64,000 bases of DNA from Streptantibioticus cattleyicolor NRRL 8057 = DSM 46488. GTDB lineage: Bacteria; Actinomycetota; Actinomycetes; Streptomycetales; Streptomycetaceae. The notes under the pieces were generated by a model. The model saw only the letters and a list, made by a program, of their open reading frames with translations, searched no databases and was not told the origin of the DNA. Below are positions 42,555 to 58,066 of the stretch, in pieces. A program made the position numbers and the translations under genes. The number at the start of each line of letters is the position of its first letter. Position 1 is the stretch's first letter. The stretch is taken from contig NC_017585.1 of NCBI RefSeq assembly GCF_000240165.1, forward strand, positions 744,001 through 808,000. The letters are read 5' to 3'.

Positions 42555-43565
42555 TCACGGCTCCAGCCCCGAATACCAGGCCGCGGTACGGGCCGGGGCG
42601 TCGAACAACTCGATCGTCCGGTCGTCCCCGGCCAGCAACGACAGCGAGAAACCCCGCATGTCCAGCGCGGTGGTGAAGTCACCCACCTTGCTGCGCGCAA
42701 CCGTCACCCCGCGCTCCGACAGCACCCGCGCCACCTCGTGGAAGACCGCGTACAACTCCAGCCGGGTCACCGCCCCCAGACTGTTGACCAGCACCACCAA
42801 CGGGGTGTCCGGCGTCGGCGCCAACGCGTCCAGCAGCGCCCCCGCCATCCGCTCCAGCAGCTCGCGCAGGGGCTCCTGGCCGATCGAACGGTCCGCCCGC
42901 TCACCGTGGATGCCCACCCCGTACTCCAGCACCCCGGGCGGCAGGGTGAACGCCGGCTCGCCCGTGGTCGGCGAGGTGTGTGCCCGGGAGGCCACCGCGA
43001 TCGTCCGGCACCGTGAGGTCAGCGAGGCGCCCAGCGCCGCCAGGTCCTCCAGACCGCCGCCCTTGTCGGCAGCCGCCCCGAGGACCTTCTCGATCAGCAC
43101 GGTCGCCGCCGTCCCCCGCCGTCCCACCGCGATGTCCTCCGACTGTGAGGCCAGGTCGTCGTCGACGAGCACCCGGGCGCACGGTATGCCGCGGTGCGCG
43201 AGGCGTTCCGCCGCGATACCGAAGTTGATGCGGTCACCGGTGTAGTTCTTGACGATGTGCAACACACCGTCGGGCCCGGCCACCTCGCAGGACGCCTCGA
43301 AGATCTGCCTGTTGTGCGGCGAGGCGAAGATCCTGCCCGGACACGCCGCGTCCAGCATCCCCTCACCGACGAACCCCAGGTGCATCGGCTCGTGCCCCGA
43401 ACCGCCCCCGGACACCAGCCCCACCCGCCGCGACGCCGATCGTCGCCGCGCGTACACATACCCCTGCCGGGCATCGTGCACCACAAGTTCGTGATGGGCC
43501 TCGGCGAACCCCGCCAAGGCATCGTCCACCAGGGGATCTGTGGCATTCGCGAAGTACGGGCCCAT
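42555..43565 (-). CDS. dhaK: dihydroxyacetone kinase substrate-binding subunit DhaK
   Basis: 336 residues from the ATG at 43565. VGLVSGGGSGHEPMHLGFVGEGMLDAACPG is the DhaK signature, and His220 in YGVGIHGERA is the residue that covalently binds dihydroxyacetone as a hemiaminal. With DhaL it forms dihydroxyacetone phosphate, which is also the AfsA substrate encoded 2 kb away. That link is suggestive but unproven. Confidence 0.94.
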   Translation of the reverse strand: MGPYFANATDPLVDDALAGFAEAHHELVVHDARQGYVYARRRSASRRVGLVSGGGSGHEPMHLGFVGEGMLDAACPGRIFASPHNRQIFEASCEVAGPDGVLHIVKNYTGDRINFGIAAERLAHRGIPCARVLVDDDLASQSEDIAVGRRGTAATVLIEKVLGAAADKGGGLEDLAALGASLTSRCRTIAVASRAHTSPTTGEPAFTLPPGVLEYGVGIHGERADRSIGQEPLRELLERMAGALLDALAPTPDTPLVVLVNSLGAVTRLELYAVFHEVARVLSERGVTVARSKVGDFTTALDMRGFSLSLLAGDDRTIELFDAPARTAAWYSGLEP

Positions 43566-43746
43566 GGCGGCTCCTGAAGGTACGTGGCGTCCGGACAGCG
43601 GAAGCCATACCTCTCTCCCGCAACACATCCTCCGGCCGTCCCGGCCCACCGGCAACTCGCTCACCCCCCGCCCCACCGGAGCCCGGCCCCGTCCATAACA
43701 CATCCCTCCGCCCCACGCACCCGGCCGGACCCCCGGTGACCCCGGA

Positions 43747-46479
43747 TCACCGCGCCGAGGCGGCCGGACGCCCGGCACGCAGCGCCGCCCGGACCCGGTC
43801 CGCCTGGCGGGCGTAACGGTCGGGCTCGGACGCGTCCGTGGCCGTGGCGGCGCGCTGTGCGGTGATCCGCGCCTCCAGCAGGTGGCGGGCGGTACGGGAC
43901 CGGGCGGCGTCGGCCTGCCGCTGGGCTTCGGCGAGCGCCTGCGCCCGGCGTACCCCGGGGGCGCGCAGGGCGGTCTCGTACGCCCGGCGGGCCTCCGCTT
44001 CCGCCTCCGGCGCGCGGGCCAGCAGCGCCAGCGCCGTCCGGCGGTACTCCGCCGCGGCCAGCTCCGCGGTGAGCCGCGCCTGGACGGCGAGCCCTTCCGG
44101 GGTGCCGCCGGCCGCGGCCATCGCGGCGCATTCGCGCTCGATGCGGGCGCGCAGGTTGGCCTCGGTCAACTCGGCGGTACGCCGCCCGGCCGCGCTGTCG
44201 CCCGGCTCGGTGGAGGCCGCCACGACCAGGGCGACGGCCCGTTCCACCACCGCGTGCACCGCGCGGCGCCCGGTGCACGCCGCACACCGGCCCGCCGACC
44301 GTTCGGCGCCGCAGTCCGCGCAGGCGAGCGCCTGCCGGGCCCGTTCGGCGGCCTCGGCCTCCGCCCTGCGCCGCGCCGCCTCCGCCTCACGCGCCGCCCG
44401 CCGCCGAAGGTCCTGCTCCCGGCGTACGGCGGCCTGCCGCGCGTCCTGCCGGGTACGGGCGGCCAGGCGGCGTTCGGTCTCGGCGCGGCGCTCCGGCTCG
44501 GGGGCGTGCGCCATGCCCGCGGTGACCTCCTCGGCGACCACGCGCCGTAGCGTGCGCCGGTCGGCGACCCGCAGCGCGCAAGCCGGGCACGTCGCGCCGG
44601 TGTCCATGCGCACCCCGTCGTCGCACCGGACGTCCCCGCATGCGCCCCGACGCGGCAGCCCGCGCCCCAGCAGCCACCCCACCGGGTCCGCCACCGCCTG
44701 GGGCCCGCCCTGCTCGCACAGCCGCCGGGTCAGCCGCTCGGCCAGCATCCGCGCGGCCGGATCCACCCCGGTCACCCCCGCGATCCGGGCCAGCTCGTCC
44801 CGCGCCGCCCGGGCCACCCGGATCCGGGCCCCCGCCCGGTCCAGCCGCGCCCACACCGCCGCCACCGGCGCCAGCGCCTCCCGCAGATCCCTCGGCGGCG
44901 CCGACACCGCGAAAGCGGCCAGCGGATCGGCGCCACGCGAGCGTTCGGCACGGGCGGCGGGGATCTGTGGCCGTTCCCCGCGCAGCGGGCGTCCGGCACC
45001 ACGCCGGACGGAACGCTTCCCGACGGGCTTGACCCCGGCGGCACGGGCCCCCTCGCGCGCATCCGCGCGCTCCGGCCGACCACCGGACCCCCGACCGGCT
45101 ACGCCGGAAAAGCGGGAACGAACGGTGACATGTGGCGAAACCTGGGTTGGTGAAGGGTGGTTGGGGTGAAGTGGGACAGCAGCGGGGTGCTCTGGAACCT
45201 CGCTGTCCGAATGCTGTGAGACCACCCCGATCCCATGGGCGGTACGGGTTCCGTCGGCCCCCTCCGCACCGGGTCCCCCGGGTGCAGCAGCGGGGCTGCG
45301 GAGTTCGGCACGGTCGGCGAGGTCGTCGAAGGACGCCTGCGCCCAGCCGTCGCCCGCCAACTCCCCGTTCTCCTCGGCCTGATGAGCTTCCTGAGCGCCA
45401 TCGGGACCACCGTCGTGACCGTGACGGCAGCAGTCGCAGAGGATCACCCGATCGGGGGAGGGCTGCGTTTCCTCCTCGTTGACGGAGGAGACCTCGGAGG
45501 CCGGGAACATCTCGTCGAACTCGTCGTCGTCCTCGAACGGTTCGTCCCACGAGGACTCGTCCGCCGAACCGTCGCCGCTCCGCCCGTTGGCCGCCGCGAC
45601 CGCGGGGACCACCAGCCGGGTCTTGCCGAAGAGCCCGGAACTGGTCTTCACCGGCACGGTGACGACGGCCTCCAGCCGCTTGAGCCGGGCCAGCACCTTG
45701 CTGCCGCCGGAGATCGAACACCCCAGGGCCCGGGCCACCGTCGCCGCCGCGCGCCCCCGTCCGTCCGGCAGCGAGCCGCCCACCAGCCGCACCCGCCCGT
45801 CCGAGCCGGCCTGGAGCACCAGCAGCAGCAGCGCGAGCCGGTCCGTGGCCGCCCCCCTCCCCCGCTGCCCCGCCAGCAGCCCGGCGGGCGTCGCGCCCTT
45901 GCCCCACCCCGGTGCGAACAGCGCCTCCAACAGGCGCAGCAACGTGACCAGTTCCTTCTTGGACAGCGCCAGCGGATGGCCGACGTCACCACGGCGCCGG
46001 GCCTGCCACAACGGCATGACCACGCACTCCAGCCCGGTGGTACGCCCGGAATCCGTCCTGGTGGTACGCCGGGTCACCGCCCGGGACTCCTTGAGGGAGG
46101 GCAGCACGGTGTGGTCGACCATCGACTCCGACATCCCGATCCAGCGCCCGAGTTCACCGGCGCGGATACGGGTGCGGCAGGTCCGGTGATCGGCCTTGGC
46201 CATCAGCACCACGGCACTGAGCCGGGCCGCATCCGTCAACCCGACGAGCGGCTGTTCATCCAGCAGGGTCCGTACGGCGGTGTAGAGGCGCCGACGCATC
46301 CCGGGCCCGAGGTGCAACGGATCCCCAGGACCCCGCATCGGAGCGGGTCCGGCCTGGTCAGCGGCGGTACGAGCACGCTGCCGGGGAGCACGGGAACGGG
46401 GTGGACGGACGGTCGCAGGCGCGTCGTCTGCGGTGGGTGGGGTCGACTCCGGTGGCGCGCCATCACCTGTTTGAGGCAA
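43747..46479 (-). CDS. candidate plasmid replication initiator: tandem winged-helix and zinc-ribbon protein
   Basis: 910 residues. Residues about 75-160 (LTDAARLSAVVLMAKADH, then LGRWIGMSESMVDHTVLPSLKESRAV) and about 205-295 (DRLALLLLVLQAGSD, then VARALGCSISGGSKVLARLKRLEAVV) look like two winged-helix modules, the architecture of many plasmid initiators. After an acidic linker, residues 614-634 form a zinc ribbon (C-X4-C-X11-C-X2-C), then an Arg/Glu/Ala-rich coiled coil (about 660-720), a second zinc ribbon at 720-735 (C-X2-C-X8-C-X2-C) and a helical tail. No helicase or primase motif is seen. The initiator role is inferred from architecture and from the adjacent partition loci and repeats; a large transcription regulator is the alternative. 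Confidence 0.6.
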   Translation of the reverse strand: MPQTGDGAPPESTPPTADDAPATVRPPRSRAPRQRARTAADQAGPAPMRGPGDPLHLGPGMRRRLYTAVRTLLDEQPLVGLTDAARLSAVVLMAKADHRTCRTRIRAGELGRWIGMSESMVDHTVLPSLKESRAVTRRTTRTDSGRTTGLECVVMPLWQARRRGDVGHPLALSKKELVTLLRLLEALFAPGWGKGATPAGLLAGQRGRGAATDRLALLLLVLQAGSDGRVRLVGGSLPDGRGRAAATVARALGCSISGGSKVLARLKRLEAVVTVPVKTSSGLFGKTRLVVPAVAAANGRSGDGSADESSWDEPFEDDDEFDEMFPASEVSSVNEEETQPSPDRVILCDCCRHGHDGGPDGAQEAHQAEENGELAGDGWAQASFDDLADRAELRSPAAAPGGPGAEGADGTRTAHGIGVVSQHSDSEVPEHPAAVPLHPNHPSPTQVSPHVTVRSRFSGVAGRGSGGRPERADAREGARAAGVKPVGKRSVRRGAGRPLRGERPQIPAARAERSRGADPLAAFAVSAPPRDLREALAPVAAVWARLDRAGARIRVARAARDELARIAGVTGVDPAARMLAERLTRRLCEQGGPQAVADPVGWLLGRGLPRRGACGDVRCDDGVRMDTGATCPACALRVADRRTLRRVVAEEVTAGMAHAPEPERRAETERRLAARTRQDARQAAVRREQDLRRRAAREAEAARRRAEAEAAERARQALACADCGAERSAGRCAACTGRRAVHAVVERAVALVVAASTEPGDSAAGRRTAELTEANLRARIERECAAMAAAGGTPEGLAVQARLTAELAAAEYRRTALALLARAPEAEAEARRAYETALRAPGVRRAQALAEAQRQADAARSRTARHLLEARITAQRAATATDASEPDRYARQADRVRAALRAGRPAASAR

Positions 46480-46669
46480 GAGTGAGCCGACCCTTGTGCG
46501 GGTAGCTATGATTTACTCCGGTAAGTGAGACAGAGGGGGAGGCCCCTCCACCTAGCTCGGAACTCTGAATGGCATGGGAACCAGATGAAGGCCGCGTAGG
46601 GTGGAAACGACCTTCAGTCAGAGCTGGACGACGAGTTCAGTAGAGGCTGGATGTCACCTCCTTCTCGAC

Positions 46670-46713
46670 AACGCGAGTGGCCCGGGAGTGCAGATCCCGG
46701 GCCACTCCGCGTT
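46670..46713. terminator. strong hairpin terminator between the small HTH gene and the initiator-like gene
   Basis: Arms at 46675-46687 and 46695-46707 are a perfect 13-bp inverted repeat (GAGTGGCCCGGGA and its complement) with a 7-base loop. The stem extends outward by about five pairs with one bulged C. It lies 145 bases beyond the stop of the 46852-47325 gene, on the way to the initiator-like gene. No long U-tract follows on either strand. Confidence 0.75.
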
Positions 46714-46851
46714 TCGCGGCTGTGTCTGTGGCCCCGCTGCACCGACTGGGGCTGAGCCCAGGGGAAGGCCGCGGGTAAGACATCGCTGAGTCGGTCGCTG
46801 GACCAGCCGCCCCGCGGGCGTGACCCGTCCGATCGGTGAGCACCTGCCCGG

Positions 46852-47325
46852 TCAGGCCGCAGACTTGGGGTTCTGCGGACGACGGCGGCGGTGCTTGAGA
46901 TTCGCTATGGCGTCCGGAAGCTCGGAGACCCACAACCCGACCGGGATCCTGAAGGCCACCCGTCCACCGAGGTGCTCCAGATCGAAGGCGGCCCGCTTCG
47001 CCGGGGTGGTGACCAGGTGGACGGAGTCCTCCAGCACCCACAGCGCCGTGTCCGGCGTGGTGTTGGGGTCCGAGGCCGCCTCCCGGGCGGCCTCCACCGC
47101 GCTGGACTGCCACAGCTCCAGCTCCTGGCGTGCGCTGCGCGGCCGGCGTACCCCGGGCCAGACGATCTGGGACACGAACGCATAGACGCGCAGCGCCACC
47201 ACGGAGTCCTCGAAATGCGGCTCGTAGAGGACGCCCTGGTCGCGCGCCTTCCAAGCCCACGACTCGCTCAGACCGGCCGCGATGGCGACGGCGCTGGTGC
47301 TGAGTTGATTGCTGGTCAGCGACAT
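46852..47325 (-). CDS. small protein with N-terminal HTH-like region, unknown
   Basis: 157 residues from the ATG at 47325. The N-terminal stretch LSTSAVAIAAGLSESWAWKARDQGVLYEP resembles a MerR-like or other helix-turn-helix start. The middle has RRPRSARQELELWQSSAVEAAREAASDP and the C-terminus is basic (KHRRRRPQNPKSAA). It was not recognised as a named family. Its position, directly downstream of a phased iteron array and between partition and initiator-like genes, suggests a replicon maintenance role such as copy control. Confidence 0.65.
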   Translation of the reverse strand: MSLTSNQLSTSAVAIAAGLSESWAWKARDQGVLYEPHFEDSVVALRVYAFVSQIVWPGVRRPRSARQELELWQSSAVEAAREAASDPNTTPDTALWVLEDSVHLVTTPAKRAAFDLEHLGGRVAFRIPVGLWVSELPDAIANLKHRRRRPQNPKSAA

Positions 47326-47497
47326 GGTTTCGCATCTCCGATGAGCAAGGTGTCGATCGTGATGCACACCATAGCGCAAATTGGCCGAGCGTTTCTTGGG
47401 TCACTAGACGTTCGGCGTGTCATTTCCGCCGCAACGTTTCTGCGAACGCCCGATTTCTAGGGGTTGTTGACGCGAAGTTCGTGCCTTCGTTAGGTCG

Positions 47498-47509
47498 CAC
47501 GCTCTAGTG
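47498..47509. promoter_or_regulatory. CACRCTCTAGTG motif, copy 1
   Basis: CACGCTCTAGTG, 173 bases upstream of the 157-aa gene. The same 12-mer with one change occurs upstream of parA1 (50165-50176). On the minus strand both read CACTAGAGYGTG, containing a -10-like TAGAGY. It is either a shared promoter element or a common operator. Confidence 0.45.
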
Positions 47510-47579
47510 TCGCAGAGATCGTGAGATCGCTCGAATGCTCGTCAGTTTGTGTGCGTGTTCGTGCTGGTGTTGGTTCTAG

Positions 47580-47663
47580 CGTTGCAACAACCGTTGTAGT
47601 TGGTGTTGTAGTAAGCGTTGCAGATGGCGTTGTATGGAACGTTGTAGAGGGCGTTGCAGCCGT
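47580..47663. repeat. array of seven 12-bp-phased GTTGYA iterons (array 1)
   Basis: The hexamer GTTGCA or GTTGTA begins at 47581, 47593, 47605, 47617, 47629, 47641 and 47653, exactly 12 bp apart each time, mostly preceded by C. The bases between hexamers are not conserved. A degenerate eighth unit precedes at 47568. Constant 12-bp phasing with a conserved hexamer indicates cooperative protein binding, as at plasmid centromeres or iteron origins. It lies between the end of parB1 and the 157-aa gene. Confidence 0.92.
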
Positions 47664-47687
47664 TCTGTCATAGAGGGGTCATGAAAA

Positions 47688-47743
47688 ACGGGTGGGGCGG
47701 GTGGTTCCGGCGTCGATGTGCCGGAACCACCCGCCCCACCCGT
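47688..47743 (-). terminator. intrinsic terminator of the parA1-parB1 operon
   Basis: A perfect 24-bp inverted repeat (arms 47688-47711 and 47720-47743, 8-base loop). On the minus strand the stem is followed directly by TTTTT, making a textbook rho-independent terminator 72 bases after the parB1 stop. Confidence 0.95.
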
Positions 47744-47814
47744 GGAAGGACGACAACTCCCCCGGTGATCGAGGGGAGGGATCCCCCGGTGGCTTCAGGG
47801 GAGGAGGACGGGGG

Positions 47815-49137
47815 TCAGGTGCCCGTACCGGGCCCCGCCTTGCGGACGCGTTGCGGTCGCTGGAGCGGACCCTCCTCGTCCATCGCCTGGAGGAAGCGTT
47901 CGATGACGGCCGAGACCACAGAGGTGCCCCGCCGCCCGAACCCGGCTTCCTGCAAAGCCAGGTTGAGACTGGAGATGAAGGCGAGCACCTGCTCCCCCAC
48001 CCGGTACGTCGACGGCTGGGTCCGTTCCAGGTCCCACATCCGGTCGTCCTCGAAGGCCCGCGCCATGGCGATCTGCTCTTCGATGTCCTCCGGCACGTGA
48101 CGCAGCGCGGCATCCACGTAATGCCCCAGCGCCAGCCCGGAGTTGCCGGTGGTACGGCGATCCGCGTTCACCCGGTTCTTCAGCGCGGCCAGGACGTCCG
48201 GCGCGATCCGGAAGCCGTACCCCTGCCAACGCGTCGGATGCATCTTGGCGTCCGCGTAACTGGCGAACACCGCGGCATGGGCCCAGGACTGCCCCGGCCC
48301 ACCACGGCCGGCGCCGCCGGAACCACTCCTGGCGGACGGACTCGGCGCGACGGAGTGGGAGGGCGCGGATGCCGAAGCCGTCGGCGCGGCCGTGCCGGGG
48401 ACGGAATCGTCCCGGCGGGGTGCCGGTGCCGAGGCACCGTTGCGCTTGGCGGACTCCTTCGGACCGGTGTCCTTGCTCAGGTGCTTCGCGTTGGTGGACG
48501 TGTCGGTGTCGGTGTCGGTGTCGGTGTCCGCGTGGTCCGCGGTGTCGGCCGTGACGTTGTTCCGCTGAGCCGGTTCCGCGGTATCGGTCCGGGGCCTGCG
48601 CGGACGCGGCGCCGTCGTGGCACCGGGTGCGGGTACGCCGAGGCGGGCCGCCGGGTTCGGTGCTGCGGAGGCGGGCGCGGCCTGCGACAAGGGCGCGTCG
48701 TCGTACGTCGGCGGAGGCTGCGACGCGGGTACCGGTCTCGCCGCGGTGGCGGGGGGCGGCACAGGGGCGTCGTGCTCGTCGGCGGGGACGACGGTGTCGG
48801 ACACGGGGTTCGGCCTGGGCGTGACCGGCGCGGGTGACTCGGGCGCCGGGACCTGGCTTTCGTCACCCGGGATCGTCGTGGCATCGGTCGTCGGCCCGGT
48901 GGGGACCGGCGCTGACGGCGGCGGCCCCGCGGGGTCGTCGGCGACCGGCCGCGGAGCGGTGGGTACGGTGCCACCGCCGCCGAGGAACGAACGGCTGGCC
49001 ACGTCATCGGCACCGGCGATGAGACCCTGTACGAGAGCGGAGCCGGTGGGTTTGAAGTGGTTGGGGGCTCGCTTCTTCGCCTTGCCGGTCGCCTTGCCGC
49101 CCTGCCGTGAGCTGGACGGAGAGGACTTGTCGGTCAC
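47815..49137 (-). CDS. ParB-like centromere-binding protein with two tandem RHH-like modules (parB1)
   Basis: 440 residues. The start overlaps the parA1 stop (ATGA), so the two are co-translated. Residues 1-290 are disordered, Pro/Ala/Thr-rich, with a TD-dipeptide run near residue 205-220 and a basic N-terminus KGKAKKRAPNHFK-like region that could stimulate ParA ATPase. The C-terminus holds two beta-alpha-alpha units: about 307-350 (YGFRIAPDVLAALKNRV to GHYVDAALRHV) and about 376-420 (STYRVGEQVLAFISSLNLAL to TSVVSAVIERFLQAM). Both fit ribbon-helix-helix folds. No canonical ParB/Spo0J domain is present. This resembles type Ib partition partners but with two RHH modules in one chain. Fold assignment is by eye. 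Confidence 0.7.
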   Translation of the reverse strand: MTDKSSPSSSRQGGKATGKAKKRAPNHFKPTGSALVQGLIAGADDVASRSFLGGGGTVPTAPRPVADDPAGPPPSAPVPTGPTTDATTIPGDESQVPAPESPAPVTPRPNPVSDTVVPADEHDAPVPPPATAARPVPASQPPPTYDDAPLSQAAPASAAPNPAARLGVPAPGATTAPRPRRPRTDTAEPAQRNNVTADTADHADTDTDTDTDTSTNAKHLSKDTGPKESAKRNGASAPAPRRDDSVPGTAAPTASASAPSHSVAPSPSARSGSGGAGRGGPGQSWAHAAVFASYADAKMHPTRWQGYGFRIAPDVLAALKNRVNADRRTTGNSGLALGHYVDAALRHVPEDIEEQIAMARAFEDDRMWDLERTQPSTYRVGEQVLAFISSLNLALQEAGFGRRGTSVVSAVIERFLQAMDEEGPLQRPQRVRKAGPGTGT

Positions 49138-50015
49138 CGGAGGCCCTCACCGTCGATACGGTCCGGCGTCTCCCACTTCTGCGGAGGCTGCTCCATACGC
49201 CCGAGGATCTGCCACATCAGCTCGCCGTACATCTTGCCCGGAGGGTGGCTGGCGAAGCGGAGCACCGAGGGAACCCCGTGCGCGAACGAGTCGCTGATGC
49301 GCTCGTCACGGCGGATGTCGGTGAGGAAGGGCGCCAGCTTGGCGTCGAGCATGCCGTTGCGGATGTTGACCTCTTGGGCCTTCCACTTCGACGGCGGGTT
49401 GGAACGGTTGAGCACGGCCCCCAGGTACTGCGGGTCGCACTCGCCCCCCGTACGGTCCTTCACATAGCTGACCGTGCCTCGGGTGGCCACGGCGCCCTTG
49501 AGCGCGGGGTATTCGGGCACACAGACGGTGATCACATAGTCGCCGGCGGCGAGGGCGGTGGCGGAGAGGGAGGAGACCGCGGGCGGAGTGTCGATGAGGA
49601 CGTAGTCGAAGTGGTCCTGGAGTTCAAGGAGCATGCGCCGCAGGACCGGGGTCGACTGATACCCCTTCTTATGGATGAGGTCCTGCGCGGCCGTCATCGT
49701 CGATTCCTCGGAAGCCAGCAGGTGGAGGGTGCCCGCGTCCTCCCAATCGGCGAGGAGATCGCTGCGGTCGTACCAGATGCTCTCCAGCGGCATCCGCATC
49801 CCCTGGAGACGAGCCTGGAGAACCCAGCCCAAAGAGCGGGCGAGCTGGTCCTCTCCTGCTAGGTTGACCCCGAGCGCCGTGCCCGCTTGTGCCTGGGGAT
49901 CCAGGTCGACAACGAGGACGCGCGCTCCCCCGAGGGTCAGCGCGGCAGCTAGGTTGACCGTGGTGCTGGTCTTGCCGACCCCTCCCTTCTGCGTTGCGAC
50001 CGCGATGACTCTCAT
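49134..50015 (-). CDS. parA: ParA-family partition ATPase (parA1)
   Basis: 293 residues from the ATG at 50015. The deviant Walker A is QKGGVGKTSTTVNLAAAL, Walker A' is VLVVDLDPQAQAGTALGV, and Walker B is FDYVLIDTPPAVSSL. It has no N-terminal HTH, so it is of the small type Ib/chromosomal kind and would not repress its own promoter by itself. It forms a coupled operon with parB1. The ATG at 50015 follows GGAGAGGGG; seven further residues are possible upstream. Confidence 0.95.
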   Translation of the reverse strand: MRVIAVATQKGGVGKTSTTVNLAAALTLGGARVLVVDLDPQAQAGTALGVNLAGEDQLARSLGWVLQARLQGMRMPLESIWYDRSDLLADWEDAGTLHLLASEESTMTAAQDLIHKKGYQSTPVLRRMLLELQDHFDYVLIDTPPAVSSLSATALAAGDYVITVCVPEYPALKGAVATRGTVSYVKDRTGGECDPQYLGAVLNRSNPPSKWKAQEVNIRNGMLDAKLAPFLTDIRRDERISDSFAHGVPSVLRFASHPPGKMYGELMWQILGRMEQPPQKWETPDRIDGEGLR

Positions 50016-50164
50016 CGCCTGTTCGCCCCTCTCCACTCAAGTCAGTTGCCAGCGCGAAGCGCGTGTCACCAGGGCATGAACCAGGGCAATTCCCCGAGCC
50101 AAGCCGGAGGAAACGGGCCGTTTGGCCGCTTCGTCCTCTCTCGGCGCCGCGGAACCTTCCCCTC

Positions 50165-50176
50165 CACACTCTAGTG
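50165..50176. promoter_or_regulatory. CACRCTCTAGTG motif, copy 2 (parA1 promoter region)
   Basis: CACACTCTAGTG, 150 bases upstream of parA1, matching the copy at 47498-47509 at 11 of 12 positions. Flanking bases are also similar (GTGACACGGGATC against GTGTCGCAGAGATC). It is a candidate promoter or operator shared by the two minus-strand genes. Confidence 0.45.
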
Positions 50177-50299
50177 ACACGGGATCTTCGCGCATGACCA
50201 TAACAGGGTTGACGCCGGCGGGAGGCAAGACGCGCGGCATTGCGACACGCGAACCGAGCTGACTCTCCCCCAGCCCGCCCCCGGGTCTTTGTCAGGAGG

Positions 50300-51130
50300 G
50301 GGTGCGCGCGGGCGTGGCTTGGTTGCTTGGGAGGAGGGTTGGCGGGGCGGGCTGGTGGGTGGGGTCGTGGGTTCGTGGGTCGTGGGTTAGTGGGGTCATG
50401 GGTTGGGTTCGGTTGGTTTGGGCGGGTGTGAGGGGTGGATGCGTGGGTGGGTGTGCTGAGTGGGGGTGCGCGTCCGGCGCCTTTGGTGAGGCCAATGTCG
50501 TTGTGGGTGCGGCTGGGGTGAGTGCTGGCGGGGCGGAGTGGTCGGAGGGGCCGGCTTCGATCCGGGTTGCGGTCGGGCGGATGGGGTGGGTGGTTCGAAG
50601 TGAGGTCTGGCTGAGGCGCGGGGGCGACGGTGAGCGCGGGGTGGGTTCGCTGATGGCGTGATCGAGGGTTGGGTGGTCCGATCGTGTGCGCGGTGGTGCG
50701 GTGGTGCGGTGGTGCGGTGGTGCGGTGGTCCGTGGGTGGGTTCGGCGGTTGGACCGGGGGTGGGTTCGGACGTGGGTGGGTGCGTTGGATCGGTGGGTGG
50801 AGTGTGGGTGGGTGCGTGAGCGCGTGGGTGTGTTGGACCGGTGGTTCGGCGGTTCGGCGGTTCGATCGTGGGTTGGTGAGTTGGGGTGTGAGTTTGCGGG
50901 TTGGTGGGTGTGCGGGGTTGTTCGTTCGGTGGTTTGGGCGTTCGCGGGTGGGATGGTGTGTGGGTGCGTTGGACGGATCGTTCGTGTGGTGGGTAGTGCG
51001 TTGGTTCGGTGGTGCGTGTGTTGGCTGGAGTGTGGGTTAGCGCGAGCGATCGTTAGTTGGTTCGTTTGTTTGCGGGAGCGTAAGTGAGAGTGTTGGTTTT
51101 GTTGTTTGGTGTGGCGTAAGTTTCGTCGTT
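50300..51130. other. gene-free, strongly G+T-biased segment
   Basis: About 830 bases in which the plus strand is almost only G and T. In 50341-50400 there are 7 C and 2 A in 60 bases; in 50701-50760 there are 9 C and 1 A. It is made of irregular repeats such as GTGGTGCG and GTGGGTTCG, including four GTGGTGCG-like units in a row near 50695-50730. No reading frame looks like a real protein. It lies between parA1 and iteron array 2 and may be an origin-associated or R-loop-prone region. Confidence 0.8.
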
Positions 51131-51131
51131 C

Positions 51132-51424
51132 GTTGCAGCGTTGCAGGTTACGTAGTTGTAGTCGTAGCTCATTGCGTTGTATTGGTCGTTGTGCTTTCCG
51201 TTGCTATTTACGTTGCAGCCATCGTTGTGTCTCTCGTTGCAGGCGCGGAGGCTCGGCGGCCGTCCTGTTGTTGTAGCTTTCGTTGCATCCATCGTTGCAG
51301 CGATTAATGCTGGGCTGTCGGCGCGGAGCGTGCGGTGCTGTGTTGGGCGGTCGGGCCGCTCCAGGTTTGTAGCTGGCAGAGGCTCATCGTTGTACCCTTC
51401 GTTGCAGCGAGTGTTGTATGCCCA
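51132..51424. repeat. second GTTGYA iteron region (array 2), several 12-bp-phased blocks
   Basis: GTTGCA/GTTGTA or one-mismatch forms begin at 51176, 51188, 51200, 51212, 51224 and 51236 (12-bp steps). Further blocks are at 51270, 51282 and 51294, and at 51389, 51401 and 51413. Extra hexamers are at 51132, 51140 and 51155. Blocks are out of phase with each other. Same motif and same 12-bp spacing as array 1 on the other side of parA1-parB1. Confidence 0.9.
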
Positions 51425-51525
51425 GGTCAACACGGTTTCGCCGTTCAGGTCGGCTCTTGAGATTGACGTGAAGGGGTTGTCGGCCGTCGGAGGGCGCTCA
51501 GGACGGGCGCGTTCCACGGCTTGCC

Positions 51526-51629
51526 TCAGTGCGGATGTCCTGACGCCCGTCGCATGCCGTCGTTGCCGGCTGGTGGTTGAGCGGGGGTAGGGACGTTGCC
51601 CGAAGAGGCTCGCCGCGGTGCACCCTGAG
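51526..51629 (-). pseudogene. displaced 3' end of the MFS exporter gene
   Basis: When the IS element and one copy of its 3-bp target duplication are removed, the MFS frame ending ATVFLAR continues without a break into TQGAPRRASSGNVPTPAQPP and stops at 51526, giving a 427-residue protein. These 104 bases are therefore the severed C-terminus. Confidence 0.8.
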
Positions 51630-51703
51630 TTCTGAGCTGCACTGATCTTCGTGGAGTCCTTGAAGCCTGGGTTACGATCCAGGCGTAAGGAGAACCACCT
51701 GCA

Positions 51704-52015
51704 GTGCCAGCACCACGTAAGTACCCCGATGAACTCCGCGAGCGCGCCGTCCGCGAGGTCCGCTCGACCGGCCGCCCAGTGACGCATGTCGCCCGCGACC
51801 TCGGCATCCACAAGGAGGCCCTGCGGTCATGGGTTCGCCAGGCCGAGGCCGACGCCGGCGAGCGCGACGACCGCCTGACCAGCTCCGAGCTGGAGGAGCT
51901 GAAGCAACTCCGGAAAGAGAATGCCGAGTTGAGGCGGGCCAACGAGATTCTCAAGGCCGCCAGCGTGTTTTTTGCCCAGGAGATCGACCGTCCCCGGACG
52001 AGGCCGAGCAGGTGA
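51704..52015 (+). CDS. IS3-family transposase OrfA
   Basis: 103 residues. The HTH (YPDELRERAVREVRSTGRPVTHVARDLGIHKEALRSWVRQ) and the leucine-zipper-like helix (LEELKQLRKENAELRRANEILKAASVFFA) are typical of IS3 OrfA. A T6 run at 51968-51973 lies in the overlap. A -1 slip there joins OrfA to OrfB and yields the full OrfAB transposase. Confidence 0.95.
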   Translation: MPAPRKYPDELRERAVREVRSTGRPVTHVARDLGIHKEALRSWVRQAEADAGERDDRLTSSELEELKQLRKENAELRRANEILKAASVFFAQEIDRPRTRPSR

Positions 52016-52896
52016 TCGACCACCTGCGAGACAAGGGCCTCGGGGTCGATCCCGTCTGCCGGGTGCTGGGCTTGTCTCCCTCGACGTACTTCGCGCGCAA
52101 GACGCGACCGAAGTCCGCCCGCCGGTTGCGTGATGAAGAGCTGATTCCGCTGGTCACAGCCGCGTGGGAGGACTCCGGCCGCACCTACGGCGCCCGCCGG
52201 GTCACCCGCGCGCTGGTCCGCGCCGGCCACGCGGTGGCCCGCTGCACGGTCGAGCGGCTGATGCGGGAGCTCGGGATCGAGGGCGTCATCCGCGGGCAAC
52301 GTCGTCGCACCACGGTCCCCGAGCCGACCGCGCCGCGTCCGCCGGATCTGGTCAACCGGCGGTTCACCGCCGAGCGGCCGAACCAGCTGTGGTTGGCGGA
52401 CCTGACCTACATCCGCACGTGGTCGGGCTGGGTCTACGTGGCGTTCGTCCTGGACGCGTACTCCCGCCGGATCGTGGGCTGGCAGGCCGCCACCCACATG
52501 CGCACGGACCTGCCGCTGGACGCACTGGAGATGGCGCTGTGGCGGCAGCAGATCAAGAAGGACGCCGGCCTCATTCATCACAGCGACCGCGGGTCGCAAT
52601 ACGTGTCCATTCGCTATACGGAGCGATTGGCCGAGGCCGGCGCCTCCGCGTCCGTGGGCTCCGTCGCCGATTCGTACGACAACGCGATGGCCGAGGCCTT
52701 GAATGGCACATTCAAGGCCGAACTGATCGAGCATCAGGGCCCGTGGCGGGACTTCGACGAAGTCGAGCGGGCCGTCTTCCAGTGGGTCGCGTGGTACAAC
52801 GGTGAACGACTCCACTCCGCCCTCGGCTACCTGCCACCCGACGAGTACGAACAGGCGTACTGGGCGAGACCGGAGCAAGTCCCACAGACCGCTTGA
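52012..52896 (+). CDS. IS3-family transposase OrfB (DDE integrase domain)
   Basis: 294 residues from the GTG at 52012; the natural product is likely the OrfAB frameshift fusion. An N-terminal HTH_21 region (DEELIPLVTAAWEDSGRTYGARRV) is followed by the integrase core with QLWLADLTYIRTW (first Asp), HHSDRGSQYVSI (second Asp) and DNAMAEALNGTFKAELI (Glu). All three catalytic residues are present. Confidence 0.95.
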   Translation: MIDHLRDKGLGVDPVCRVLGLSPSTYFARKTRPKSARRLRDEELIPLVTAAWEDSGRTYGARRVTRALVRAGHAVARCTVERLMRELGIEGVIRGQRRRTTVPEPTAPRPPDLVNRRFTAERPNQLWLADLTYIRTWSGWVYVAFVLDAYSRRIVGWQAATHMRTDLPLDALEMALWRQQIKKDAGLIHHSDRGSQYVSIRYTERLAEAGASASVGSVADSYDNAMAEALNGTFKAELIEHQGPWRDFDEVERAVFQWVAWYNGERLHSALGYLPPDEYEQAYWARPEQVPQTA

Positions 52897-54115
52897 TCAC
52901 ACGATCGCGGACTCTACGAAAGTCGGGGCAGCTCATTCTGGCCAGGAAGACAGTGGCGGCCAGGGCGAGGACGCCGGCCACGCAGAGCTGTACTCGGTAG
53001 TCGAGGAGCGCGACCATGCCTGTCCCCAACAGCAGGGCGAGGCCGGTCGGGGCGAACATGAGGGTGTTGGCAGTGGCCGTGACCCGGCCCAGGAGTTCGT
53101 TGGGCGTTTGCCGTTGCAGCGCGGTCACCGATGCGACGAGGGGGCAGGGAAGTCCCAGCCCTATGGCTACGTGTCCGATGAGGACCACTGGCAGCCACGG
53201 TGTCGTGCGGGCCAGGATGCCGATGGCGAAGACGGACAGGCCCGCTGCGGCGAAGACCCGCTCGGGTATGCGCCGGAGGAACGCTCCTGCGGCGATCCCG
53301 ATGAGAACGGAACCGAGCCCTTGCGCCCACAACAGCGCTCCGGCAAACGTTGGCGGGCGGTGCAACCCGGTGTCCAGGAGCGCGAACGTCGCCGTGCTGC
53401 TGAGGCTGGAGGCCGCCATCGCCGTTCCGCCCGCGACCACCAGCTTCCGTAGGAGGCGTTGACGCCACAGAAAGCGACCTCCCGCGACGGCGTCCTTTCG
53501 CCACGATCCGTTCTGGCGAAGCTTCGGGGCCGGCTCCCGCCTTCGTACCCGGACGCATACGAACGCCGCCGCGGCGAAGAGGAAGGTGATGGAGTCCAGC
53601 AGCGCGACGGCGGAGCCGCCCAGCGCGCTGAAGAGTCCGGCCCCGGCCAGCGGGGCCAGGAGCTTCATGCTCTCCACTGCGGTACGCACCAAGCCGTTGA
53701 GGTCACCTCGCAGCTCGTCGGGGACAGCGGAGGTCATAAGTGCCGTCTCGGCCGACTCGGTAAGTACGGCACCTGTACCCACCAAGATCAGTACGGCGAA
53801 GAGCAACCAGATCTGCCGGCTCGAGTGAAGCACCAACGGTGTGGTCAGCGCGGCGGCCAGGGCCAGATTGGTGCCGACGAGCAATCGCCGTCGTGGAAAC
53901 CGGTCCGCCACCGCACCGATCAACGGCCCGGTCAGCGTGGGAAACCAGACGCAGAAGCCGGTGAAGGCGGCCAGACTGTCGGAGCCGCTGAGCGCCTTCA
54001 CCCAGATTCCGGCGGCCAACGACATCGCCGAGTCGCCGAATCCGGAGACCACCACCCCGCCCAAGTAGAACGCCGCATCGCGGTTTCGCAAGACCCGCAC
54101 CACGCCCCAGGCCAT
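52712..54115 (-). CDS. MFS exporter (enterobactin-exporter type), C-terminus replaced by IS sequence
   Basis: The frame gives 467 residues, but only the part from 54115 to 52936 (about 393 residues) is native. It has twelve predicted helices and the MFS motif GPLIGAVADRFPRRRLLVGTNL. From 52935 the frame reads backward through the IS3 element. The ancestral end lies at 51526. As the lost piece is only the post-helix tail, the protein could still work. It is divergent from an ArsR-type regulator across a perfect 10-bp inverted repeat, so export is likely induced by a ligand of that regulator. Confidence 0.88.
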   Translation of the reverse strand: MAWGVVRVLRNRDAAFYLGGVVVSGFGDSAMSLAAGIWVKALSGSDSLAAFTGFCVWFPTLTGPLIGAVADRFPRRRLLVGTNLALAAALTTPLVLHSSRQIWLLFAVLILVGTGAVLTESAETALMTSAVPDELRGDLNGLVRTAVESMKLLAPLAGAGLFSALGGSAVALLDSITFLFAAAAFVCVRVRRREPAPKLRQNGSWRKDAVAGGRFLWRQRLLRKLVVAGGTAMAASSLSSTATFALLDTGLHRPPTFAGALLWAQGLGSVLIGIAAGAFLRRIPERVFAAAGLSVFAIGILARTTPWLPVVLIGHVAIGLGLPCPLVASVTALQRQTPNELLGRVTATANTLMFAPTGLALLLGTGMVALLDYRVQLCVAGVLALAATVFLARMSCPDFRRVRDRVIKRSVGLAPVSPSTPVRTRRVAGSRGRSGVVHRCTTRPTGRRPARLRRSPATGPDARSVRP

Positions 54116-54147
54116 CCCCTCACCACCCCCTTCGCGGTGGCGTCACA

Positions 54148-54175
54148 CTACCTCCAACGATTTGCTTGGAGGTAG
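54148..54175. promoter_or_regulatory. operator: perfect 10-bp inverted repeat CTACCTCCAA / TTGGAGGTAG
   Basis: Arms at 54148-54157 and 54166-54175 with an 8-bp spacer, midway between the divergent MFS and ArsR-like genes. Size and position fit a site for the winged-helix regulator encoded at 54196. Confidence 0.8.
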
Positions 54176-54195
54176 CCCTCCCGCTCGACCACGTC

Positions 54196-54750
54196 ATGCG
54201 CTTAACTGACGCCGTGAGCGACACCGACCCCGTACTCCGAGCCCTCGCCCACCCTCTGCGGCTGCGCATGCTGACCCTCCTGTGGCCAGGGCCGATGTCC
54301 GCCGCCGAACTCGCACGCGAACTCGACATCTCCCACGCGCTGGCCAGCCAGCATCTACGGCGACTCGACGCGGTCGGCCTGGTCGAACTCGTCGAGGAAC
54401 GGATGCGGCGGGGCGGACGGGAGCGCCGCTACCGAACCGTTCACGGCTCGCCACTCTCCGACCAGACCGAGGGCGCGCCGCTACTGGCCGAGACCCTCGC
54501 CCACACCCTGCGCCAACGTGCCGCCCGCCGCGCCCCGCACAGCGCCGGCGTCACCGTCGACGCCGAACTCTGGCTCGACCCCGAGACCTGGGACGCCGCA
54601 CGGCAACGCCTCGCCGACCTCGCCGCCGACCTCCACGAAGCCGCGCGCCCGCCTCGTACACCGGGGACGGTACCGATCGGCCTGAGCATGATGGCGTTCC
54701 GGATGCGGGACGAACCGTCCGAGACGCGGAGCGAAGCAGAGCTGACATGA
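54196..54750 (+). CDS. ArsR-like winged-helix regulator (HTH_20)
   Basis: About 184 residues. VLRALAHPLRLRMLTLLWPGPMSAAELARELDISHALASQHLRRLDAVGLVEL is an ArsR/HTH_20 DNA-binding domain. The C-terminal part (AELWLDPETWDAARQRLADLAADLHEAARPP) matches regulators that pair with MFS exporters. The start is set at the ATG at 54196, as an upstream TTG at 54166 falls inside the operator. A GTG at 54214 is also possible. Confidence 0.88.
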   Translation: MRLTDAVSDTDPVLRALAHPLRLRMLTLLWPGPMSAAELARELDISHALASQHLRRLDAVGLVELVEERMRRGGRERRYRTVHGSPLSDQTEGAPLLAETLAHTLRQRAARRAPHSAGVTVDAELWLDPETWDAARQRLADLAADLHEAARPPRTPGTVPIGLSMMAFRMRDEPSETRSEAELT

Positions 54751-54978
54751 CGGAAGGCGGGATCCGGCATGGCGGAGAGCTGGTCCCGGTACGACGGAAT
54801 GTCGGTCCCGACGTGACGGAGGTCCGTTCCGGCACGACGAGGGATGGGCCCCGGCATGACGGAGGGTCGCTTCCGGCACCCGACGAAAGCCGGGCCTCAG
54901 CATGACGAAACGTCCCGGCATGACGAGGGATCCCCGGCATGACAAGGGTCCCGGCACGACGAAGGGCGGGACGCCAAC
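54747..54978. repeat. degenerate tandem repeats, about 17-24 bp units
   Basis: About ten units of the pattern AYGACGRAGG...CCGGC follow the ArsR stop directly. Examples begin at 54748, 54770, 54836, 54856, 54901, 54919 and 54938. Units vary in length and middle sequence. No open frame in it looks real. Confidence 0.65.
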
Positions 54979-55012
54979 CCACTGGCATCCCGCCCCACCA
55001 CTCACGGCCAAC

Positions 55013-55029
55013 CCATAACCCGGTTATGG
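55013..55029. repeat. ParB2-type palindrome, site 1 (central C)
   Basis: ATAACCCGGTTAT at 55015-55027, extended to a 17-bp palindrome CCATAACCCGGTTATGG. It lies 18 bases beyond the parB2 stop. Confidence 0.9.
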
Positions 55030-55046
55030 CCCGACCGCCTGCACCC

Positions 55047-56237
55047 CTATTCGTCCAACGCGTCGATCAGCGCCTCTGCCAACGCCTGCGACTCCTCACG
55101 ATCCAGCACCTCCAGGATCGCCTTGGCGAACGCCGGGATGTCATGCCAATCGGCCATGGTCAGCGCCGCCCCCCGCCGCTCGCGCTGCGCCGGCACCTCT
55201 GCCGCCACGTCGTCGTACGGCTCACCTTGCTCGTCCTCGCCGCACTGCTCGAACTCCTCGGCCCTTGGCGACTGCGCCGCCGTCCCCGTGGCCGCGCCGG
55301 AATCCGCCCACTCCCCGACACTCGCCGACGACCTCATGACGCCCTCACTCATAACCGGGTTATAGGTCGCCGAGTCGTCCTGCCCCATAACCGGGTTATA
55401 AATCGGGGCTTCTCCGTGGGTCCCCTGCGTTCCCGGTCGCTGCTGAACGGAACGGTAAGCGGCCAGCGTCGCCATGGCCATGTCGCTGCTATGCGCATGC
55501 TCGTCCTCGGGAACCGAGGGGGCAACAGCCAGCGCGGGCGTCACGGGCTCCGGGGGCGTCGGCGGTTCCAGGCTGCGCTGGTACGCGTCGACCTGGTCCT
55601 CGGTCGGCATGCGGGCGAAGGCGCGAGCGTCCTTCACCCCGAGTACGCCGGTGACGACGAGTTCCTGAAGCTCCGGTACGAGCTTGCGCAGCAGGAGCAT
55701 CTGGGAGATGTACGGCTGCGTGCGGCCGATCGCCTTGGCGACCTTCGCCTGCGACAGGCCCTTGCCGATCGGCGGCTTCTCCGTCAGCCGGTACAGCGCT
55801 TCGGCCTGCTGGATGGGGTTGAGATTCTGCCGCAGCCCGTTCTCGGCGAGAGCCCAGAGCAGCGGATCACGTGCGCCGGCGTCATCGATGAACCCCGGCA
55901 CGTCCGTCCGCTTGGCGATCCTCGCCGCGTGGACCCGGCGGTGGCCGGCGAGCAGAACGTACTTGGCGTCGGCGATGACGGCCCGGTGCTCGGGGTGGTG
56001 CCTCAGAAACGCTTCCGCGTTGCATACGGAGATCGGGCTCGTCACGCCGATCTCCGAAATGCTCTCGACGAGGCTGCGGAACTCATCGTCGCTCTCGTCG
56101 ATCTCGCCGCGCGGGTTCTCCGGATTGTCGGTGATCTCGGCGAGGGGAAGGTGGACGTCGGACTTGGGCGGCGCTTCGGTCGCCTCCTCCAGCGGCTCGC
56201 CGTCGAGCATGTCGGCGAGATTGACGCGGCGGCTCAC
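55047..56237 (-). CDS. parB: ParB/Spo0J-family partition protein (parB2)
   Basis: 396 residues from a GTG whose bases overlap the parA2 stop (GTGA). The N-terminal ParB domain includes LPLAEITDNPENPRGEID, SISEIGVTSPISV and KYVLLAGHRRVHAARIAKRTDVP (the GERR-type box, here GHRR). The HTH follows: LSQAKVAKAIGRTQPYISQMLLLRKLVPELQELVV. The C-terminal 150 residues are acidic and end in a short helix that may dimerise. Residues about 280-284 and 292-296 are both YNPVM, encoded by two copies of the 13-bp palindrome thought to be its own binding site. Confidence 0.93.
   Translation of the reverse strand: MSRRVNLADMLDGEPLEEATEAPPKSDVHLPLAEITDNPENPRGEIDESDDEFRSLVESISEIGVTSPISVCNAEAFLRHHPEHRAVIADAKYVLLAGHRRVHAARIAKRTDVPGFIDDAGARDPLLWALAENGLRQNLNPIQQAEALYRLTEKPPIGKGLSQAKVAKAIGRTQPYISQMLLLRKLVPELQELVVTGVLGVKDARAFARMPTEDQVDAYQRSLEPPTPPEPVTPALAVAPSVPEDEHAHSSDMAMATLAAYRSVQQRPGTQGTHGEAPIYNPVMGQDDSATYNPVMSEGVMRSSASVGEWADSGAATGTAAQSPRAEEFEQCGEDEQGEPYDDVAAEVPAQRERRGAALTMADWHDIPAFAKAILEVLDREESQALAEALIDALDE
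55351..55363. repeat. ParB2-type palindrome, site 2 (inside parB2)
   Basis: ATAACCGGGTTAT, central G. Read on the minus strand in frame it encodes YNPVM of ParB2. Confidence 0.92.
55387..55399. repeat. ParB2-type palindrome, site 3 (inside parB2)
   Basis: ATAACCGGGTTAT, central G, 36 bp from site 2 (12 codons), encoding the second YNPVM in the same frame. Confidence 0.92.
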
Positions 56238-56950
56238 TGCGAAGCTCCGTTCAGCGCGATCTCCAGCGCCAGCTTGTCGAAGTCCTGGCGTCCCTGCAGC
56301 GCGACCCGGTTGGCCGGGTACTGGGTGACGACGACACCCTCGGCGGACGCCCGGGCATGCAGCTTGTAGTGGCGGATCACCGTACGGGCCAGGTGACCGC
56401 AGCTCTTCTCCACGAACTCCTGCGTCTGCTTCAGGTCCACGTCCCCGTCGCGCGGATCCCAGTTGTTGATGACCACGGTGTACGGCAACTTCCGCGGTTC
56501 GACCACCCGCTTGATGGTCCGCAGGGTCGGCTTGAAGCCGAGAGGCTCGGGCTCGATCGGCAGGATCACGGAGTCCGCGTTGTCGAGCACGGCCCGCAGG
56601 ATCTCCGCGGCCCTGCCGTCCCCGAGCGGATCCGCTGACGAGTCGTCCTCTGACAGGTCCAGCCAACCCGGGGTGTCCACGAAGATGTGACGCACCCCCT
56701 TGACCTTGCTCAGCCGATTCAGACCGTCGAGGTCCTTGTGGGCCTGAGTGAAGAGGAACGGGAGTTCATCGCCCACGCGATCGGCCCACCAGGAGGTGGA
56801 GCCCTGCGGGTCGACCGAGACGGCGAGGACCGACGGGGTGCCGTCCGGCTGGGTGCCGATTGCTTCGGCGGTCACGGCGGCGAGATTCACGGTCAGCGTG
56901 GACTTGCCCACGCCGCCCTTCTGGTTCAGGACAACATGCACGTGTGCCAT
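56234..56950 (-). CDS. parA: ParA-family partition ATPase (parA2)
   Basis: 238 residues. Walker A is NQKGGVGKSTLTVNLAAV, the A' Asp is in LAVSVDPQGSTSWW, and Walker B is VRHIFVDTPGWLDL. It lacks an N-terminal DNA-binding domain. Only distantly similar to parA1. It forms a translationally coupled operon with parB2, whose promoter region carries the most extended copy of the 13-bp palindrome, consistent with autoregulation by ParB2. Confidence 0.94.
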   Translation of the reverse strand: MAHVHVVLNQKGGVGKSTLTVNLAAVTAEAIGTQPDGTPSVLAVSVDPQGSTSWWADRVGDELPFLFTQAHKDLDGLNRLSKVKGVRHIFVDTPGWLDLSEDDSSADPLGDGRAAEILRAVLDNADSVILPIEPEPLGFKPTLRTIKRVVEPRKLPYTVVINNWDPRDGDVDLKQTQEFVEKSCGHLARTVIRHYKLHARASAEGVVVTQYPANRVALQGRQDFDKLALEIALNGASQ

Positions 56951-57050
56951 GGGTTCCGTCTACTTCCCAATGGTGCTGGTACTTCGGACGCACACAGCAT
57001 TCCAGATGATCGCTTCTGACCTGGAATCGCCTCGCTGTCATATGCCGTGA

Positions 57051-57071
57051 CCCATAACCCGGTTATGGGTG
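57051..57071. repeat. ParB2-type palindrome, site 4, parA2 promoter (perfect 21-bp)
   Basis: The 13-bp core at 57055-57067 (central C) is extended by four matching bases on each side, making the longest palindrome of the set. It lies 101 bases upstream of the parA2 ATG. Confidence 0.92.
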
Positions 57072-57929
57072 GGAGGTGCGTCGCGTACCTGGCGGTTGCC
57101 TTCGGGGGTCGGGTTGTGGCCGGTGGCTCCGTGCGTGTCTGGCGGCGTGTTCGCGTTGGCTGCCGCGGTGTTCGGGGGCGCCTCGTGGGGGAGGGGGCGG
57201 GGTGCGCCCATGCAGGTCTTGAGGCGAAGTTACCTGCTGCGGCGTCGTCGCGTCCGATCGCGGACGTCTGTCGATGTGCTTGCGGCTGTCTGCTCCGCCG
57301 CTCCGCTTGCGGTGGGTGGTGACCGTCGCGGTGGTTGAGGAACATAGACGGGGCGTGCTGGCAACGTGGTGTGGTGGTGTGCGGTGTGGGTGGTCGGCGA
57401 GAGCTGGGCAGTGGGTGCCGTGTGTGCTGCCGCTGCTGCGTGGTGCGTGCCGCAGGTACACGCTTCGTACAGCGGACCGCGTACCGGGTGCTGTCCTCCG
57501 CATTTCCGCCGCTTTCCTGGCAACCAAGCTGCTGACGTTTCAGGCTGAGTCGGGCGGGGCCCGTTGAGGAGGGGCGGGCCGGGTAACCAGCCCGGGCCGT
57601 GGACACCTGACGCCCGTGCCGCCGGTCGACGAGTCGGCCGACGGCCGAGGTGGCGGCGGCTCCGGTGGCTCAGTGGCTGACTTGGTACGACCGGCGCGTC
57701 GAGTACGGCTTCCTGATCACTGTGCTCACGATGCCTCCGCATCGGTGTCGGTAGGGTCGTTGCTCGTGGCGGGTGAGGCCTTCGGCGAGTGATGCTGAGG
57801 GGAGGCGGGAGCTAGTGAACTGGTCAGTGGACCCTGGGAGGAACTGTCGAGGGCGGAGGGATGGAACTGGGGGAGGACACGGGGGCGATGGGGACAATGA
57901 GTGAGGGTAGGGTCGGCCGGGGGTCGGCC

Positions 57930-57942
57930 ATAACCCGGTTAT
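57930..57942. repeat. ParB2-type palindrome, site 5
   Basis: ATAACCCGGTTAT, central C, in the gene-poor stretch; flanks GGCC and AGGT are identical to site 7. Confidence 0.92.
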
Positions 57943-58066
57943 AGGTAGCCGGGGAACAGGTTGGCCGCCGAGGTGGCGCCGGAGGTCGCCTGGCCGACCA
58001 GTGCGGTCAGCGGTGGTGGGTACGAGAGTTCGGATGGTTCCGGGGGCTGAGGGCGGGGCGGTGGAT

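Follow-up and report, generated by a model that had tools for sequence, protein, structure and literature searches.

A 4-bp DNA lattice flanking a parAB operon as the probable two-part centromere of a giant linear plasmid in Streptantibioticus cattleyicolor

A DNA lattice with a strict 4-bp step flanks the parA1-parB1 operon of S. cattleyicolor on both sides. The two sides share a motif, the motif turns over between lineages of related loci, the spacing is conserved and the lattice stays linked to the operon; the second protein of the operon, ParB1, is predicted to fold into two ribbon-helix-helix (RHH) modules in one chain. At roughly three chances in four, we consider the two parts of the lattice (arrays 1 and 2) to be flanking parts of one centromere coated by this tandem-RHH ParB1; from these patterns we infer DNA binding by ParB1, activation of ParA1 and segregation of the plasmid. 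The DNA analyzed, hereafter the window, is a stretch of 64,000 nucleotides that belongs to megaplasmid pSCAT (NC_016113.1), with which it agrees letter for letter over 5.5 kb about the operon; the replicon is linear and 1.81 Mb in size.

Results

The lattice at parA1-parB1

The original prediction placed a second, larger set of GTTGYA hexamers with a 12-bp step beyond parA1. All of its positions were borne out and the 12-bp step is kept within the blocks (Table 1), except that only three of the six members of block 1 are exact, the others reading GTTGTG (51188), GTTGCT (51200) and GTTGTG (51224). Array 2 holds 12 GTTGYA within 340 bp, with four pairs at 12 bp; neither value was reached in 5,000 Markov sequences per model (maxima nine sites and two pairs), the models being of orders 1–2 trained on the region itself and of orders 2–3 trained on the surrounding GT-rich DNA. 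When 12 sites were placed at random, at least four pairs at 12 bp arose in 33 of 100,000 trials. Three phased GTTGYA in a row occur seven times in the 8.1-Mb genome, every time in arrays 1 and 2, and no such triple was found on the other strand of the whole genome.

The hexamer interval is real, and the element runs about 0.6 kb further towards parA1 than had been proposed. Between the hexamer blocks and parA1 lies a lattice of ~0.7 kb with a strict 4-bp step: read as tetramers, 112 consecutive units (50652–51096) carry G at the same phase. Markov models of orders up to 4, fitted to the array 2 segment itself, produced no run longer than 22, and in 20 control stretches of this genome, each of 20 kb, one base recurred at a 4-bp step up to 16 times in a row. 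The lattice score reaches 29.9 at array 2 and exceeded 8 in none of 99,020 control windows of this genome; within the window it exceeded 8 at 47445–47712 and 50561–51260 only. A run of 21 G at the 4-bp step occurs at a single place in the whole genome, 50652–51096. Array 1 has the structure of array 2 in shorter form: G stands mostly at one phase in 47481–47580, and seven exact GTTGYA at a 12-bp step (47581–47658) continue that register. A model with a 12-bp step only was dropped because lags of 4, 8, 16, and 20 bp are raised too; the 12-bp step is present in the blocks, but as one multiple of a 4-bp lattice. The three blocks have no common register (first-G positions modulo 4 are 0, 2, and 1): the exact hexamers of block 1 begin in the register of the lattice G of array 2; blocks 2 and 3 do not share it, nor does the hexamer at 51155.

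A scan of 43500–58000 against Rfam gave no match. Transposase genes (HTH_Tnp_1; rve integrase core) lie at 51704–52896, beginning 0.3 kb past array 2.

Table 1. Coordinates of the features discussed (positions in the window unless stated otherwise)
Feature	Position	Strand	Description
Large protein, Rep candidate	43747–46479	-	910 aa; syntenic; putative Rep role
Small protein, HTH-like N-terminus	46852–47379	-	175 aa; syntenic; flanked by array 1 and the Rep-like gene
Array 1	47453–47692	.	LLR>10 segment; 4-bp lattice, then exact GTTGYA hexamers
parB1	47815–49137	-	440 aa; no Pfam, NCBIfam or PHROGs family
ParB1 RHH module 2 (predicted)	47872–48012	-	aa 376–422; AlphaFold2 E112–116, H118–133, H137–158
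ParB1 RHH module 1 (predicted)	48103–48225	-	aa 305–345; AlphaFold2 E41–45, H49–66, H73–81 of fragment
ParB1 N-terminal conserved segment	48976–49056	-	aa 28–54; candidate ParA contact
parA1	49134–50036	-	Deviant Walker ATPase, 300 aa; Pfam AAA_31, E 2.2e-33
Array 2 core lattice	50561–51260	.	G at one phase on + strand; LLR>8 segment; takes in hexamer block 1
Extra hexamers	51132–51160	+	51132 and 51140 (8 bp apart), 51155
Hexamer block 1	51176–51241	+	Six GTTGNN, 12-bp step: 51176, 51188, 51200, 51212, 51224, 51236
Hexamer block 2	51270–51299	+	Three GTTGYA, 12-bp step: 51270, 51282, 51294; register shifted by 2
Hexamer block 3	51389–51418	+	Three GTTGYA, 12-bp step: 51389, 51401, 51413; register shifted by 1
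ParB2 ORF	55047–56666		Pfam ParB_N and ParB HTH domains
C-anchored run of locus L027	-1205 to -485 from HMM start of parA		181 tetramers; the L027 lattice extends to about 1.8 kb

Lattices beside related operons

The C-terminal part of ParB1 has matches in 37 plasmid records, in 21 of 394 genomes of the family and in five contigs of another collection. A parA gene adjoins the ParB1 gene in 47 of the 48 loci examined, the single miss being a weak match, and 45 loci were kept. Runs of 21 G at the 4-bp step did not serve as a family-wide test of specificity, since they also turned up in 17 of 20 family genomes that lack a ParB1 match; loci were therefore scored by phase-specific composition in 200-bp windows, with matched controls. 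Of the 45 loci, which span 602 kb, 40 have a segment with LLR>9 upstream of parA and 24 have one downstream. Nine further such segments, in eight loci, lie beside the same parAB on one or other side: six, all in Embleya-type loci, stand 5.2 to 6 kb past the start of parA, two are farther upstream (L031, L064) and one is downstream (L076). The same scoring gave no segment in 400 kb of the plasmid's own genome and two weak ones (maximum 9.9) in 800 kb from four genomes without a ParB1 match. Two loci (L025 and L068) have both ParB1 and ParA, and no lattice was found there at LLR>9. Lattices on both sides of parAB were found in 30 of the 45 loci, which upholds that part of the original prediction which saw a paired element flanking one par operon.

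A de novo search led to the same spacing. Upstream of parA, 12-bp arrays were found in 40 of 45 loci and a 16-bp period in 38, as compared to two to eight loci for periods of 9, 10, 11, 13, 14, and 15 bp; downstream of parB the corresponding counts (z>3) were 34, 19, and zero to four. Lags that are multiples of 4 showed more 4-mer identity than other lags, by a factor of 2.9 upstream of parA (44 loci) and of 2.4 downstream (45 loci), where the excess was less even. This periodicity does not decay to 60 bp, and other lags are near background upstream of parA. The same ratio is 1.08 in parAB coding DNA, which shows multiples of 3 instead. The longest run seen is that of locus L027, where C keeps one phase through 181 consecutive tetramers upstream of parA. 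The top lattice score of all loci, 56.1, comes from the upstream side of L072, with the consensus C-K-A-G; the first ribbon of the L072 ParB is aberrant (GVKL).

Shared motifs and conserved spacing

Lattice motifs vary by lineage (TGCAAC, GTAGG, TACCGAT, TGCATGGC). A motif derived from the downstream array recovers a matching one on the upstream side, both within its own plasmid and among plasmids of its group (19 of 23 loci; four without a downstream array were left out of this first grouping by 12-bp motif). Compared in the same orientation, the 5-mer spectra of the two sides of one locus gave 0.19 vs. 0.075 for off-diagonal pairs (permutation p = 5e-5); Embleya-type loci carry their two lattices inverted relative to each other (0.36 to 0.43). 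Covariation of array pairs had been set beforehand as a test, and it was observed: sides match within a plasmid, and the motif changes between plasmids.

The spacing appears to be under selection, as had been argued from the hexamers. Between orthologous lattices (alignments below 60% identity were skipped), every indel measures 8, 12, 16 or 24 bp, always a multiple of 4, and the anchor phase carries fewer substitutions than the freest phase in the comparisons of L009/L010/L011/L034 and of L013/L032; such a deficit is not clearly seen in L020/L021, so that the support comes from most pairs and not from all. Slippage of 4-, 8- or 12-bp units, leaving decayed microsatellite DNA without function, would likewise yield indels in multiples of 4. 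The 21-G runs in genomes without a ParB1 match are consistent with it: many of the places listed consist of poly-G or of 8- to 20-bp simple tandem repeats, some of which are irregular. We nevertheless regard this explanation as very improbable: neighboring tetramers of the pSCAT lattice are no more alike than permuted ones (6 identical vs. 6.6; lag 2 is borderline, p 0.05), the anchor phase is the rarest or near-rarest in substitutions in the two sets just named, and lattices with a shared motif stand on both sides of one operon in two-thirds of the loci.

Predicted structure of ParB1

ParA1 scores below the family cut-off of NCBIfam ParA_partition. ParB1 contains neither the ParB_N nor the ParB HTH domain of a canonical HTH ParB (CTPase) acting with parS; it matches no Pfam family at all. 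The Pfam RHH models gave no match in the ParB C-termini of 23 members, with chance-level hits only, and a sequence search of the PDB returned nothing meaningful (best E 1.5). AlphaFold2, run on six sequences, predicts two RHH modules in one ParB1 chain (pLDDT 82.7), and the RHH assignment comes from this predicted structure only. In VIA-align, F relaxosome chains, which in our reading are TraY, gave the best structural match (Z 7.4, rmsd 3.8, 102 residues), followed by DndE (Z 6.7); the tool itself rates a Z of 7.4 as middling. Foldseek gave no match to the model at E <0.001 (best E 0.19). At the other end of the protein, a segment like ParB1 aa 28–54 occurs in several of 20 ParBs compared and is followed by a low-complexity linker.

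A deviant Walker ParA adjoining a predicted DNA-binding protein, with a repeat array beside the operon, agrees with a type I partition system. Classical type Ib RHH systems have a small ParA and a small ParB; the pair was not filed among them because its proteins have 300 and 440 aa.

Proteins that track the lattice motif

Distances between lattice motifs correlate with those between ParB ribbon residues (0.48), whole ParBs (0.46), small proteins (0.40), and ParAs (0.39); the values for ribbons and whole ParB differ little, and lineage is a confounder. These Mantel tests covered 24 of the 45 loci, those dropped having a weak downstream array or no small homologue, or being close duplicates. 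The partial correlation is 0.32 for the ribbons given the small protein and 0.15 for the small protein given the ribbons. Of the nine loci whose ribbons read [AP]FRF, eight have the GTAGG motif, which is absent from the remaining 36 (L073 and L075, two of the eight, are outside the set that gave the motif groups). A counter-example is provided by L012 and L013/L032, which have nearly identical ParB ribbons but different lattice motifs; they form a natural pair for locating further specificity residues. Taken as comparisons of sequence, these results suggest that the lattice motif tracks the ParB1 ribbons better than the neighboring HTH protein or Rep.

The same data bear on the possibility that the arrays are iterons of the megaplasmid replication origin, bound by the Rep-like protein or by the small HTH-like protein. 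The HTH of the latter was read by eye, and neither protein matches a family in Pfam, NCBIfam or PHROGs. The arrays lie near mid-plasmid, most relatives keep both genes in synteny, the sign of the GC skew changes from minus to plus at about 44–48 kb of the window, and the title of a published study refers to a central replication origin of pSCATT. However, motif distance shows no correlation with Rep distance (r 0.08, p 0.2; 136 pairs), and the HTH-like segment of the small protein is nearly invariant across plasmids with different motifs (pSCAT, L009, L012, L032, L033, L034). Repeats of an iteron origin should depend on a linked Rep gene, whereas in five Embleya-type loci (L017, L018, L062, L064, L067) no homologue of the small or Rep-like protein was found and lattices still flank parAB. 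We therefore hold an iteron origin to be unlikely, and the origin-centromere pair offered in the original prediction beside a two-part centromere is not favored for the arrays because the lattices persist where the neighboring Rep and HTH genes are absent; an origin may still lie nearby. The origin of pSCATT is described as unique, and the plasmid as present at one copy per chromosome (PMC13152386).

The second par pair

A second, canonical par pair is located 5 kb from parA1-parB1, its ParA-like gene at 56234–56950; near this pair (55047–56950) no 4-bp lattice above threshold was found. ParB2, with its ParB_N and HTH domains, might be the main system, in which case the lattice would be a ParB1 operator for autoregulation only and the canonical pair at 55–57 kb would segregate the plasmid. 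Plasmids with two par systems are described as common (PMC13245405), and ParG is reported to repress its own operon as well (PMC7308502). Against an operator stand the position of the upstream lattice in pSCAT, which is removed from parA1 by about 0.5 to 1.2 kb, the presence of another lattice part downstream of parB1, and the length of both elements, which far exceeds what an operator needs. We judge this the least probable of the alternatives, slightly behind a microsatellite.

Discussion

Our results favor a centromere in two flanking parts, and a mechanism can be proposed for it. ParB1, with two RHH modules in one chain, would be a built-in dimer that coats a long lattice with units every 4 bp, its sites lying 8, 12, 16 or more bp apart. 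Binding would be static, with neighbors at 8 or 12 bp; at one molecule per 12 bp, the two pSCAT lattices could hold an estimated 80 molecules or so. The flexible N-terminal arms of ParB1 would thereby gather a large number of ParA1-activating segments in one spot, enabling ParA1 to move or tether the 1.8-Mb linear plasmid. More specifically, we propose, at somewhat less than even odds, a new centromere architecture in which a continuous 4-bp code split over both sides of parAB is read by a single-chain tandem-RHH ParB in a long static filament. If true, such a filament would stand in for spreading driven by CTP on giant linear replicons, among them the secondary replicons of Embleya (3.1 and 5.7 Mb).

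The boxes of TP228 parH have 4-bp spacers, and thus an 8-bp step. A centromere of this box-and-spacer type does not describe array 2, in which G stands in 112 consecutive tetramers and lag 4 is raised. ParA1-ParB1 nevertheless appears to work like an RHH type I partition system, the nearest being ParFG-parH, which likewise combines a ParA-type ATPase, an RHH centromere protein with flexible N-terminal arms and, as described, a centromere of degenerate tetramer boxes (PMC7308502). The parH boxes are reported to be parted by AT-rich spacers, whereas the pSCAT register is continuous for hundreds of bp, GC/GT-rich and present on both sides of the operon; and ParB1, unlike ParG, has 440 aa with two predicted RHH modules in one chain. 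In the Delta-Omega-parS system of pSM19035, an RHH protein similarly binds contiguous short repeats at several sites per plasmid, at least four contiguous repeats being needed according to the account cited (PMC9499535); its repeats are 7-bp heptads with one consensus, whereas lattices of the pSCAT type advance in 4-bp steps, their units are degenerate and their motifs differ from lineage to lineage. The best structural match, TraY of the F relaxosome, is reported to have the fold of an RHH dimer within a single polypeptide and to occupy DNA in trains of molecules (PMC12117103); it is, however, a conjugation protein at oriT with no ParA partner, and its identity with ParB1 is about 9%.

Among Streptomyces plasmids, SCP1 with its dual ParABS and SCP2 with ParA-ParT offer parallels in plasmid partition and in the presence of two par systems. 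They differ in their sites, which are short in comparison with the long coded array at parA1-parB1: SCP1 is reported to use HTH ParB, inverted-repeat sites of 13 to 19 bp and CTP-dependent sliding (PMC13245405), and SCP2 an 18-bp parS with CTP-independent diffusion (PMC12260392). RHH systems are characterized in the former source by static binding to centromere repeats, unlike CTP sliding (PMC13245405, NAR 2026). We found no description of a 4-bp lattice in the literature searched, whose scope did not extend to the pSCATT origin (Li et al. 2022) or the parH papers.

The DNA helical repeat does not by itself account for the 4-bp register, which therefore provides a sharp test: an insertion of 4 bp should be tolerated, and one of 2 bp should not. 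The parallel turnover of the motif on both sides also supplies many natural pairs of protein and DNA specificity.

A 2026 survey names HTH-ParB as the only known partition type on PLSDB plasmids larger than 1 Mb (PMC13245405); the ParB1 system would add RHH-type partition on replicons of 1.0, 1.2, 1.8, 3.1, and 5.7 Mb. For the secondary chromosome of Embleya (relative EEC1), no ParB is reported to have been recognized (PMC13152386). The 3.1- and 5.7-Mb Embleya replicons (L017, L018) carry ParA-ParB1 with inverted lattices on both sides, and this could be the unrecognized partition locus, the ParB1 system suggesting both a partition protein and a centromere for the secondary chromosome. In S. 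cattleyicolor, the two-sided lattice is probably a docking strip that lets the cell hand down its giant linear plasmid.
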